Origin: Lentisphaerota bacterium
GTDB lineage: Bacteria > Verrucomicrobiota > Lentisphaeria > Victivallales > Victivallaceae
Length of the DNA stretch: 64,000 bases
Direction of reading: 5' to 3'
NCBI GenBank assembly: GCA_015061885.1
Contig: SUVS01000006.1
Span: 1 to 64,000 of the forward strand
The position numbers and the translations under genes were made by a program. Shown one piece after another: positions 35,232 to 40,504 of the stretch. The stretch's first letter is position 1. Every line of letters begins with the position of its first letter. The notes under the pieces are model-generated. The model was not told the DNA's origin, ran no database searches, and saw only the letters and a list, made by a program, of their open reading frames with translations.

Positions 35232-36017
35232 ATGTTTTTTATTGACCTTGCCAACGGTAAGACAAACTGTTGCGGAGTCGAACCGTCCCCGCAACTGATA
35301 CACTTTACCGGCAAACAGAAAGAGGAGTTTGAATTTTCTTTTTTGCTTGACTCCGAACCATACACACTGCCGGAAAACAGCGAAATCGTCATCCTCGGCG
35401 ATGTTGCCGAACATTACAATTCACCCATGTTCACAGCATACGGTACTATTTCACCCGACCGGCAGACAGTGTGCTTCCTGATAAACACCTTTACCGCCGA
35501 ATATATCCAGCGGGTAAAAGCAAGTGCCACGCCATGTTTTGCCGATATATGTTTGCGGCAGTTACCCGATGGCGAATATAAACGCCTGATACGCATCAAC
35601 GCCATTGCCGATTTGAAACTTGATATAAACGCTCTTCCGCCGGAACCTTTGAACAAATACTATACCAGCAAAGAAATCGACGCATTGCTGAAGGCTCTAA
35701 AACTGGATTTGAAGGTTTCCGAAGTAAAAGCGATCATGCTCGAACACCATGAAGAGCCGTACGCCGATCTCACCATTGTCAACGAAGACGATCAGTATAA
35801 GCTCAATTTCACCATTGCCATTCCTGCCGGGAAACAGGGCGAACCGGGTATGCCCGGGGAAAAAGGCGAACCGGGGGAACAGGGCATTCCCGGCGAACCA
35901 GGCGAACCGGGTATTGACGGCATGACCCCGCAAAGAGGGATAGATTACTGGACAGATGCCGATATTGAAGAAATCAGAGAATATGTAAACAGTGCTGTAT
36001 TGAATGGAGAATGGTAA
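35232..36017 (+). CDS. Phage-tail/collagen-like protein
   Basis: A 261-residue protein without a signal peptide. The first 130 residues resemble the BppU-type amino-terminal beta domain of phage baseplate receptor-binding proteins (immunoglobulin-like strands, acidic). A short helical segment precedes ten collagen Gly-X-Y triplets at about residues 201-230 (GEPGMPGEKGEPGEQGIPG is part), then the tail-fibre motif GIDYWTDADIEEI. Such collagen stretches trimerise fibres. No other phage gene is nearby. It overlaps a structured leader and is cotranscribed with the next gene, 1 bp away. It may be a domesticated or orphan receptor-binding unit; the family call is from pattern recognition only. Confidence 0.65.
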   Translation: MFFIDLANGKTNCCGVEPSPQLIHFTGKQKEEFEFSFLLDSEPYTLPENSEIVILGDVAEHYNSPMFTAYGTISPDRQTVCFLINTFTAEYIQRVKASATPCFADICLRQLPDGEYKRLIRINAIADLKLDINALPPEPLNKYYTSKEIDALLKALKLDLKVSEVKAIMLEHHEEPYADLTIVNEDDQYKLNFTIAIPAGKQGEPGMPGEKGEPGEQGIPGEPGEPGIDGMTPQRGIDYWTDADIEEIREYVNSAVLNGEW

Positions 36018-36018
36018 A

Positions 36019-37956
36019 ATGAGTTTGAAAACTGTTTTGACAGAATTAAGTCAGGCAATCCAGAGTCAAGCCTCTGTTTCCGGACCGCTGACCTTGCGTC
36101 AAATGACTGCGGCGGTAAAAAACATTGCAAGCAGCAGTTCTGCTCTCAAGTTTTACCGCTGTGCAGAATATTCTCCCGGCAGTCAGACCATCAATGTAGA
36201 GTCAGGGTTGGCAACCCTTGCCGACGGCAGCAAGATCTCATTGACAGGTGAATATCAATACAGTAACACTTACTGTTGGTACTGTCCGGCAACAACTGCC
36301 AGCGGTGAATATCTTTCAGCGGAAGTAACATTAACTGCAATTATGATGAGTTCGTCCAACGGAACATACTGCTATTTGGAATTTATACAGCCCGAAGATA
36401 TAAATCAAAACATTGCAAAATCACAAACGGTATCCGACCTTAAAGAAATCGCCTATACAGAAGATGCAGTTTTTACTGCCGGAGAAGATGTAACGCTTGA
36501 GCAAGATATTGTTTTAAGCGGAGATACCTCCAGCTTTTGCGATGTATTTTCCGGTTATGAAATCATACCGGACAGTGGAATAACCTGGAAAGAAAGCACT
36601 GTTCTGACCAAAGGACTTATTCCGAAGGGGTATATTCCGACAGCCGGAAAAATATATTCTTACAACACTTACTTTGCTGTAAACAGCATCTATCCTGCCA
36701 CACCGGAAAATATCATAAAATTCTACGAATGTTCAAGTGTTGATCCGGGCACAGAAGAAGAATTGCGTTACCCCCACCTGATTAGTTTAAGCGGTTGGTC
36801 GGAAGCTCAAACAACTTCCGCCAATGATGGTTACGGTATATATTACCCGGAAGATTTGAGCGTTGATCAGACATTGCGGGTTTATTCCAGAAAAGACGGA
36901 GCTTTTCAGCTCAAAATAAAAAACATCAATGGTTCTGCCGGACAGATCGCCGTTTGCGATGCTTCTGACAATATAATAGCAGCCACACCTTTTATGGAAT
37001 TGAGTGATATTTGGAATACCTGGAAAGAAGAAAGTTATTGCCAACTCTACTATCCGGAAGAAGCGGAAACAGCGTGGGAGGATGGAGCAATGCCGAAATT
37101 TTTCGGCAACATCGTCGAATGGGGCAATGGCAATATGTTCAACATAACCAATGCCGGCAGTTCCGAAGTAAACGGTTTTTATGTGCGGGGCAGCGGCTGT
37201 AATGAGTTCTTTTCTGCCGGATGTTATGAAAGTTGGATCAACGATAATGGCGCAGCGGCAATTTACTGGGTCTCCGACTGGAATATGGACGAAGACGGAA
37301 ACGAAATCTTCACATTGCTGCTGAAAAGCTCCAACAGTCTTTATGAACTGCTTGTTACTGACGACTGGGTTTGGAATACAGACATAACTTCCGCAAGCCG
37401 GTTCGCCGGTTATACCTGGAATGTAATCGGCGGAACTGCTCCTGTACCGGTGCTTTCTGATGCTGAACCGGAAAAAACAACTTCTTCCGCCAAGCCGACA
37501 TGGTCAGGGTATGAAATGATAAAATATCTGCCGGGATACGCCTGGGAAGTAACCAATGCCCCCATTGAGGATTGCAACGGTATCTACACAGTATATAAAT
37601 TCAATTCCGACAAAAAATATATCGTTTACAGCAATGGTAAAAACTACCTGTACACTGCATATTCGACTCACGGTTATTTATGGGCGATCTACGATACACC
37701 CACGACCTCATTGGGATCGCAAAGATTTTACCACAGCGAACTATTCGATTTTGACCAATACCTGACTCCGGCAGAAGTTGAGTGGTATATGGATAAATCA
37801 GGTAATTTTATAAGCGTAACAACCGCTCCCGACGGCTGGATAAAGAGCAGCATACTTAAAGAAAATATGCCCATAGATTTTATCACCCCGCAGGTCGGAG
37901 AGATATATTCGGAAGATACTTCCATAAAAATCGGAGAAATGTACAGAACAAACTGA
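36019..37956 (+). CDS. Large beta-rich protein paired with the collagen-like gene
   Basis: Unrecognised 645-residue protein, rich in Tyr, Ser, Thr, Asn and Trp, with acidic character and no signal peptide or membrane segment. It contains two related modules with the pattern TNA, 6-7 residues, NGxY: one near residue 375 (NITNAGSSEVNGFY) and one near residue 509 (VTNAPIEDCNGIY). Similar NG-Y modules occur in phage tail fibres and surface adhesins. The first 30 residues are helical (LTELSQAIQSQASVSG) and could dock onto the upstream fibre. It is likely the receptor-binding or adhesive part of a two-gene fibre. ATG 36019 is preceded by GGAG; ATG 36004 is possible. Confidence 0.6.
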   Translation: MSLKTVLTELSQAIQSQASVSGPLTLRQMTAAVKNIASSSSALKFYRCAEYSPGSQTINVESGLATLADGSKISLTGEYQYSNTYCWYCPATTASGEYLSAEVTLTAIMMSSSNGTYCYLEFIQPEDINQNIAKSQTVSDLKEIAYTEDAVFTAGEDVTLEQDIVLSGDTSSFCDVFSGYEIIPDSGITWKESTVLTKGLIPKGYIPTAGKIYSYNTYFAVNSIYPATPENIIKFYECSSVDPGTEEELRYPHLISLSGWSEAQTTSANDGYGIYYPEDLSVDQTLRVYSRKDGAFQLKIKNINGSAGQIAVCDASDNIIAATPFMELSDIWNTWKEESYCQLYYPEEAETAWEDGAMPKFFGNIVEWGNGNMFNITNAGSSEVNGFYVRGSGCNEFFSAGCYESWINDNGAAAIYWVSDWNMDEDGNEIFTLLLKSSNSLYELLVTDDWVWNTDITSASRFAGYTWNVIGGTAPVPVLSDAEPEKTTSSAKPTWSGYEMIKYLPGYAWEVTNAPIEDCNGIYTVYKFNSDKKYIVYSNGKNYLYTAYSTHGYLWAIYDTPTTSLGSQRFYHSELFDFDQYLTPAEVEWYMDKSGNFISVTTAPDGWIKSSILKENMPIDFITPQVGEIYSEDTSIKIGEMYRTN

Positions 37957-38505: not shown

Positions 38506-39165
38506 TCAACAACTTTTGTTAAGCATCTTGCAAAGCTGTCCGGGGTAAGTATCTGCATCAATATCGGCTGATCCCTTACCTGTCATATAAACGCCGTAAG
38601 TAATACTGTCGCCCAGACATACAACAGTTTTTGCCTCCGGATAGTTTGTTTTTACAGCCTTATAAACATTTTCCGCAATAACTTTACAGCCCTCTCCGGT
38701 CATGTGCATACCGTCGCGGCGATTGCTGTTGGCAGGATTCATCACCAGCGAAGAAGCAGTTTCATCCACCGGATCAATAAATCTGAAAATATCGACCAGC
38801 GGTATATCTCTCCGGTCGGCAGTTTGCCTGATCGTATCATTAAGCATCTCCAGCCGGTCATCCAGACTTACGGGGTGATTGATGGTTTCCGGAAAATTTT
38901 CGATCAGCAGATTTTTCAGAAAACGCGGAGCGGTCAGCAGTATTGCCCGGGCATTGATATTATTTATGCGGTCAAGCAGAGCATTGAGATTTTTCTCATA
39001 GGTCGTCAAATCCAGTATATGCCCCGGATAAAACATATCGTTGGAACCAACCAGCAGCACCACCACATCCGGTTGATGCTGTGCCGCATCGCGGTTGAAT
39101 CTTTTCAAAAGTTCCAGCGTTGTATCGCCGGGAAAACCGGCGTTATAAACCTTATACTCTGCCAC
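38506..39165 (-). CDS. SGNH hydrolase with circularly permuted motif order
   Basis: A 219-residue protein with all four SGNH blocks, but block I, the nucleophile, is at the end. Order: block II NAGFPGDTT (residues 8-16), block III GSND (40-43), block V DGMH (151-154), then block I CLGDSITYG (183-191) followed by TYPGQLCKMLNKS, which in normal family members leads straight into block II. The protein thus starts and ends at the loop between blocks I and II. GTG start at 39165, with AGGAG six bases upstream, is chosen; the ATG at 39213 lies inside the upstream gene. It follows the phosphohexomutase gene by 19 bp. No signal peptide. Likely an esterase or acyl hydrolase on sugar esters. Confidence 0.8.
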   Translation of the reverse strand: MAEYKVYNAGFPGDTTLELLKRFNRDAAQHQPDVVVLLVGSNDMFYPGHILDLTTYEKNLNALLDRINNINARAILLTAPRFLKNLLIENFPETINHPVSLDDRLEMLNDTIRQTADRRDIPLVDIFRFIDPVDETASSLVMNPANSNRRDGMHMTGEGCKVIAENVYKAVKTNYPEAKTVVCLGDSITYGVYMTGKGSADIDADTYPGQLCKMLNKSC

Positions 39166-39184
39166 TTGACCGCTCCTGTATGAT

Positions 39185-40504
39185 TTATTTACGGATGATC
39201 GCCAGAAGCTCATCGCGTTTTTCGGTCATGAGCTTTTCATCTTTGGCTTCCACGATCAAACGCAGCAACGGTTCGGTATTGCTGCAGCGGACATTGAAAT
39301 GCCAGTCAGGGTATTCCACGGAAAAACCATCCAGTTCAAACGCTTCGCCATCGGTATATTGGGCTTTGATTTCAGCAAGCACTTTAGCGGCATCGGCAAC
39401 CCGGCTGTTGATTTCGCCGGAAGAGCTGTAACGCAACAGCGGTTTGACCAGTTCTGAAACTTTTTTACCGGATTTGACGATCAGATTGGCAAGTTTTATC
39501 AAAGCCAGTCCCTGCGATTCAGCCGTAAAGTTTTCTTTGAAGTAGTAGTGTCCGGAAAGCTCCCCGGCAAATACCGCCCCGGTTTCCCGCATCTGCTGTT
39601 TGATAAAAGCGTGTCCGACGCGGGACATGATGGCGGTGCCGCCATTTTCTTCGATGCACTCTTTAACCGCACGGCTGCTCCGCAAATCGTACAGAACAGT
39701 TGCGGGGCCATCGGCGAGAATATCCTGGGCGATCAAAGCGGTGAACAGATCCATGGGGATGATTTCGCCATTGTTGTCAATAAAGCCGCAACGGTCGGCA
39801 TCGCCGTCAAACGCCGCCCCGAAATCGGCACCGACAGCCTTAACTTTGGCACGGATGTCATCCAGTGTGGCAAGGTGCAGGGGGTTGGCTTCGTGATTGG
39901 GGAAAGTGCCGTCCAATTCTTTATACATCGGAATGATCTCAAACATATCTTCGATTCCGGCAATTTCGTAAGAGCCCATGGCGTTGGCATAATCCACCAC
40001 AACCTTGAGTTTTTTATCGCCGAACTTGGCAAACTTACGCAAGAATGCACCGTATTCGGCGGATATATCATATTTTTCGATCACACCGGGTTCGGTTGCC
40101 GGGGTGAAATCATTTGCCATGACCAGTTTTTCTATATCCATAATGCCGGTGGCTCCGGAAATAGGTACGGCATTGGCCTTGCAGAGTTTGAAGCCGTTCC
40201 ACTCGCCGGGATTGTGCGAAGCGGTGATCATAATAGATCCATCGGCTTTCAGAGTGCCATTGGCAAAGTAGCTCATAGGAGTTGAGCAAAGTCCCAGATC
40301 AATGACTTTACAACCCATTTTCACCAGACCGGCAGCAAGACCGTCGAACATATCCTGCGAATGAGGACGCATATCCCGCCCGACGACCACCGTTTTAGCT
40401 CCGGTAAAGACCGCATAAGCCATACCGATTTTTTCCGCCATTGCCGCATTCAGATCGACCGGGACAATCCCCCGGATGTCATAAGCCTTGAAAATTCCAC
40501 TCAT
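39185..40504 (-). CDS. Phosphomannomutase/phosphoglucomutase
   Basis: A 439-residue alpha-D-phosphohexomutase of the ManB/AlgC group that interconverts hexose 1- and 6-phosphates. The phosphoserine motif TASHNPGEWNGFK has Ser96, the metal loop is DGDADRCGF, the sugar-specificity loop is GELSGHYYF and the phosphate-binding motif at the end is RCSNTEPLLR. AGGAGG lies nine bases before the ATG. It supplies GDP-mannose or UDP-glucose precursors for cell-surface glycans and is cotranscribed with the permuted SGNH hydrolase. Confidence 0.93.
   Translation of the reverse strand: MSGIFKAYDIRGIVPVDLNAAMAEKIGMAYAVFTGAKTVVVGRDMRPHSQDMFDGLAAGLVKMGCKVIDLGLCSTPMSYFANGTLKADGSIMITASHNPGEWNGFKLCKANAVPISGATGIMDIEKLVMANDFTPATEPGVIEKYDISAEYGAFLRKFAKFGDKKLKVVVDYANAMGSYEIAGIEDMFEIIPMYKELDGTFPNHEANPLHLATLDDIRAKVKAVGADFGAAFDGDADRCGFIDNNGEIIPMDLFTALIAQDILADGPATVLYDLRSSRAVKECIEENGGTAIMSRVGHAFIKQQMRETGAVFAGELSGHYYFKENFTAESQGLALIKLANLIVKSGKKVSELVKPLLRYSSSGEINSRVADAAKVLAEIKAQYTDGEAFELDGFSVEYPDWHFNVRCSNTEPLLRLIVEAKDEKLMTEKRDELLAIIRK

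Follow-up and report, generated by a model that had tools for sequence, protein, structure and literature searches.

The gene at 38506..39165 on the minus strand of the window, the whole 64,000-nucleotide stretch of Lentisphaerota DNA analyzed here, most probably encodes a real, folded serine esterase of the SGNH superfamily whose polypeptide chain has been circularly permuted, an explanation to which we assign a probability of roughly 0.88. On this explanation, the new termini would fall within the loop that connects the first helix to the second strand of the domain, a short linker behind the last helix would join the old ends, and the first strand and helix, bearing the nucleophile elbow, would approach from the C terminus and pack where they normally do. 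The nucleophile Ser187, with His154 and Asp151, and an oxyanion hole formed by Gly13 and Asn42 would then constitute a standard SGNH active site. The clade of permuted proteins would probably have had a single origin, most simply a tandem duplication in frame that was followed by trimming of both ends.

Each of the SGNH sequence blocks is present once in the 219-residue protein, in the order II-III-V-I (G-N-H-S). Block II (NAGFPGDTT, residues 8-16; 39118..39144) contains the probable oxyanion-hole Gly13, which is invariant in 31 of 31 sequences, and block III (GSND, residues 40-43; 39037..39048) the probable oxyanion-hole Asn42. These are followed by block V (DGMH, residues 151-154; 38704..38715), with Asp151 and His154 catalytic by homology, and only then by block I (GDSITYG, residues 185-191; 38593..38613), whose Ser187 is by homology the nucleophile; all of these blocks are on the minus strand, and Ser187, Asp151, His154, and Asn42 are each found in 30 of the 31 sequences. 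The protein therefore has the blocks I, II, III, and V, with their Ser, Gly, Asn, and His/Asp, by which the superfamily is recognized; it departs from the usual sequential S-G-N-H order, which marks it as a variant rather than excluding it. A sequence-only reading of this DNA had described just this arrangement, with all the blocks present and GDSITYG at residues 185-191 of 219 instead of near the start, and the translation agrees. The same reading held that the segment after GDSITYG, which includes TYPGQLCKMLNKS at residues 206-218, is the one that normally precedes block II.

Comparison with ordinary domains bears this out. In a profile of 32 SGNH domains, all of ordinary order and taken from related genomes and from viral contigs, residues 2-173 correspond to positions 41-200 (81 bits) and residues 178-217 to positions 2-36 (15.5 bits), nearly every profile position being covered once, in swapped order and with no overlap. 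Scored alone, the C-terminal 43 residues reached 21.0 bits, compared with 4.7 bits for the best of 2000 shuffles. Because the two matches together cover almost the whole domain once, the tail (residues 177-219; 38509..38637, minus strand) would correspond to the strand and helix with which an ordinary SGNH domain begins, absent here from the front, and would not be a second, broken domain. The Pfam family PF13472 (Lipase_GDSL_2) recognizes the protein with 85.6 bits against a curated cut-off of 32.9, its best stretch comprising only profile positions 34-177; the match begins at position 32 here, as opposed to 1-3 for ordinary SGNH genes of the same genome. When a profile of the V-I junction was compared with the PDB sequences, one half aligned with the N terminus and the other with the C terminus of individual ordinary chains (for example, 4tx1 and 9otv), and no solved chain spanned the junction; a profile of the transposed region matched residues 11-51 of 4tx1. 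Both the split profile coverage and the split of the junction among PDB chains thus argue against an artifact of start choice and against a second truncated domain.

The structure prediction that had been proposed as a check on the permutation yielded one compact fold. The AlphaFold2 model, made with six sequences of which three are from viral contigs, has a pLDDT of 91.8 and a pTM of 0.90; it supersedes an earlier model from three sequences (pLDDT 75.5), in which residues 189-204 were below a pLDDT of 50. In the six-sequence model, the GDS segment forms a strand at residues 180-185 and then a short helix that starts from Ser187, and the last helix extends over residues 207-217. DSSP assigns residues 180-185 to a strand, which is therefore hydrogen-bonded to another strand. 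In the model, this strand, the elbow, and the 207-217 helix appear to be the elements with which the ordinary domain begins (its opening strand, nucleophile elbow, and helix), now C-terminal. Residues 1-177 superpose on residues 37-191 of 1yzf (Z 17.3, 1.8 A over 152 residues) with a sequential aligner, a comparison that leaves the transposed piece outside. The alpha/beta/alpha SGNH fold is accordingly recognizable over residues 1-177, with the transposed piece a strand plus helix in the model. Structure searches of the PDB and of BFVD gave best TM-scores, by query length, of 0.62 and 0.60, respectively, among the best 50 matches listed in each, values that fit partial matches only; no full-length counterpart with this order appeared among those listed.

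The gene has a GTG start at 39165 and a TGA stop, and its reality is attested by its translation, its orthologs, and purifying selection. The stop of the upstream gene (39185..40504, minus strand), which from its sequence we take to be phosphohexomutase-like, lies 19 nt before the GTG; a ribosome-binding-site-like AGGAG (39173..39177, minus strand) is situated 7 nt upstream of the start, just as had been noted from the sequence. The two genes are possibly cotranscribed. Their order is common to all four members of the genus that carry the permuted gene: the orthologs in G001 and G002 (74% and 63% identity) and a third in G003 share both the block order and the place behind the phosphohexomutase. 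In seven of seven other genomes of the family that were examined, the mutase homolog has no SGNH gene behind it. Elsewhere in the window, on the plus strand, is an overlapping gene pair (35232-36017 and 36004-37956); the product of the former contains GxxGxx repeats of the collagen type and matches phage tail-fiber families weakly, mostly over these repeats, and that of the latter has no PHROG match.

The permuted order is not confined to this genus. We surveyed 388 genomes of the host phylum, counting a match as junction-spanning at E below 1e-15; such matches occur in 43 of the 137 genomes of the host order, in three genomes elsewhere in the class, and in six that belong to other classes. 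Open frames were also scored twice, once against the permuted profile and once against that profile rotated to the ordinary order. Some 70 of them, many not used in building the profile, favor the permuted version by 28-79 bits, and the difference between the two scores separates permuted from ordinary frames. The homologs with the same block order that the earlier reading had suggested looking for thus exist in number. Several relatives appear, by eye, to have a signal peptide, none being evident in the window protein, and some are fused to carbohydrate-binding or glycosidase-like regions (for example, CBM_4_9 and DUF6259 in L048). Among the ordinary domains, a tandem arrangement was seen in L025:401-2181 (+), where two adjacent overlapping frames (299 and 301 aa) encode SGNH domains. 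In the full tree, built from rotated domains, the permuted members cluster together, with two ordinary-labeled rows falling inside the cluster, and three changes are needed. Of these rows, C_L076 is a permuted gene truncated by a premature stop codon and C_L109 is a viral protein on a long branch; in a tree without them and the other long branches, a branch with an SH-aLRT of 91 sets the permuted domains apart. The trees are compatible with one origin of the clade, which is probable without being strongly supported. In L076 (G114:C66), the in-frame TAG is at about base 632, in the stretch from block V to block I; the corresponding codon of a close relative is for Trp, and the TAG is either a nonsense mutation or a sequencing error. 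An in-frame stop flagged in G155 proved to be the ordinary stop of that gene.

These observations bear directly on the other ways in which the unusual block order might be explained. That it results from the choice of start, a frameshift, or an assembly error has a negligible probability: the only longer reading, from an ATG at 39213, adds 16 residues with no block I among them, and the same order recurs in the four genus members and in the approximately 70 open frames, which come from many independent assemblies. The sequence-only reading, which had denied that start choice was responsible, was right on this point. It had also named in advance, as one of two findings that would overturn the permutation, evidence that the carboxy end belongs to a second, truncated domain; the first domain would then be devoid of block I. 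Proteins with two full in-frame SGNH domains do exist in the phylum (L083 and L091), and this lends the idea some substance; nonetheless, it is very improbable, as the tail supplies exactly the model positions that the front lacks, dozens of homologs share the same domain end after the first helix, and the AlphaFold2 model folds as one unit. We consider somewhat less improbable, although still distinctly unlikely, a permuted SGNH fold that has lost catalysis and serves as a ligand binder or is a decaying copy. Such losses are seen among the relatives. L022 is the single exception among the 31 sequences and has lost all four catalytic residues, so it is apparently a non-catalytic paralog; block I is altered in L095 and L090, and GNS replaces GDS in the L001 ortholog. 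(The L022 locus, L022:1387-3642 on the plus strand, is the L053 gene of G033, a large protein whose permuted domain has the replacements GLYD, NGMN, and GDN.) The joint loss of the four residues in L022 argues, in turn, that they work together in the other sequences. Against the non-catalytic alternative, the window protein keeps all of its catalytic residues, and the gene is under purifying selection: by NG86, the dN/dS of the whole gene is 0.14-0.30 and that of the transposed part, wherever a value could be obtained, about 0.1-0.2; both are rough, since dS is near saturation.

We return to a permuted and presumably active enzyme, predicted from its motifs to be a Ser-dependent esterase. It may be a cytoplasmic O-acetylesterase whose substrate is a sugar, a suggestion made because a phosphohexomutase adjoins the gene and some paralogs are fused to the carbohydrate-binding or glycosidase-like regions mentioned above; the substrate is a guess from these neighbors.

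How the permutation arose is less securely established. The proposal of the sequence-only reading, tandem duplication followed by trimming, is plausible because in-frame tandem SGNH proteins exist in the same phylum. L083 (406 aa; L083:1121-2338, minus strand) and L091 (505 aa; L091:1233-2747, plus strand) each comprise two complete in-frame SGNH domains, and in L083 the first copy's last helix is followed almost at once by the opening strand of the second copy, a short-linker V-I junction like the one kept in the permuted form. Both domains of each protein are nevertheless complete and in the ordinary order, and neither protein is close kin of the permuted clade on the tree; they hence indicate that the duplication step happens and represent a possible route, not the actual precursor. 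A true permutation could instead have been produced by moving the block I segment, either by gene fission and fusion or as a transposed piece. In keeping with this, the tree of rotated domains contains no true intermediate near the permuted clade, and no remnant of a second SGNH copy was found in the sequence flanking the gene. On the other hand, the cut falls in a loop and almost nothing has been lost or doubled, as duplication and trimming predicts, and the phylum has tandem repeats with a very short linker from last helix to first strand (L083). A segment move thus seems to us unlikely, if much less so than the explanations dismissed above, and duplication with trimming the simpler history.

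The permuted domain is also present on three viral contigs (L103, L104, and L105), the remaining SGNH matches on viral contigs being of ordinary order. In L104 and L105 the domain makes up the C-terminal portion of a larger protein; L103 encodes it in a gene of its own, located behind that of a 588-residue protein bearing a fibronectin type III domain. Endolysin genes adjoin L103 and L104, L103 also adjoins a DNA polymerase exonuclease gene, and a tail-fiber-like neighbor is beside L104. The neighbors of L105 have no PHROG match, and its assignment to a phage rests on the source collection. From their place and architecture, the proteins of L104 and L105 possibly have a role in the tail. The window protein, used alone, found no match on the viral contigs; the V-I junction found none among plasmids and deposited phages, where whole relatives were matched only partially.

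The protein offers a second natural cut point for a well-studied hydrolase fold, with the catalytic motifs all intact. Ordinary, tandem, and permuted forms coexist in one phylum, which would allow a clean test of the effect of permutation on an enzyme. Furthermore, since the best Pfam match omits block I, standard family searches may report such proteins as domains without a catalytic serine. We put forward, as a rather doubtful speculation, that a separate natural G-N-H-S permutation, with one origin, spread within one phylum and into phage tail proteins, and that its new termini alter the attachment to carbohydrate-binding or tail modules in such a manner that substrates poorly reached by ordinary SGNH enzymes become accessible.

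Known relatives resemble this protein only in part. The ordinary SGNH/GDSL hydrolases 1yzf, 4iyj, 4tx1, and 7ddy (PF13472, PF00657) have the same domain, motifs, and predicted fold over residues 1-177, but in all of them block I is on the N-terminal side, whereas here it is C-terminal. Phage tail-fiber SGNH deacetylases are also reported, for example that of Pectobacterium phage Possum (PMC9569702), and L104 and L105 may be like such enzymes in bearing an SGNH domain on a phage tail protein. Circularly permuted SGNH-like proteins have already been described, and permuted members are admitted to the superfamily (PMC9487903): AlgX, AlgJ, PatB1, and WssI are O-acetyltransferases with the order H-S-G-N (PMC9487903, PMC4148444, PMC10302187). 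They share with the window protein an SGNH-type core, a permuted order, and, on our explanation, a spatially conserved Ser-His-Asp triad. Their chain, however, is cut before block V, that of the window protein between blocks I and II, so its order is not the H-S-G-N of the AlgX/AlgJ (PF16822) or DHHW type, and PF16822 matches just 1 of 31 permuted members, weakly. Their motifs are also altered (DXH and GTSYS, with a block III Tyr in AlgX and AlgJ), whereas the window protein retains canonical GDS, GxND, and DxxH motifs, with DGMH in place of the DXH and GSND in place of the block with Tyr. In the literature on permuted SGNH/GDSL proteins that we searched, from which subscription papers were mostly absent, we found the H-S-G-N kind alone and none of the G-N-H-S kind. 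Permuted SGNH enzymes as such are thus already known; judged by its motifs and their order, the G-N-H-S protein would be a new variant among them, in which an esterase is expected where the earlier examples are acetyltransferases.
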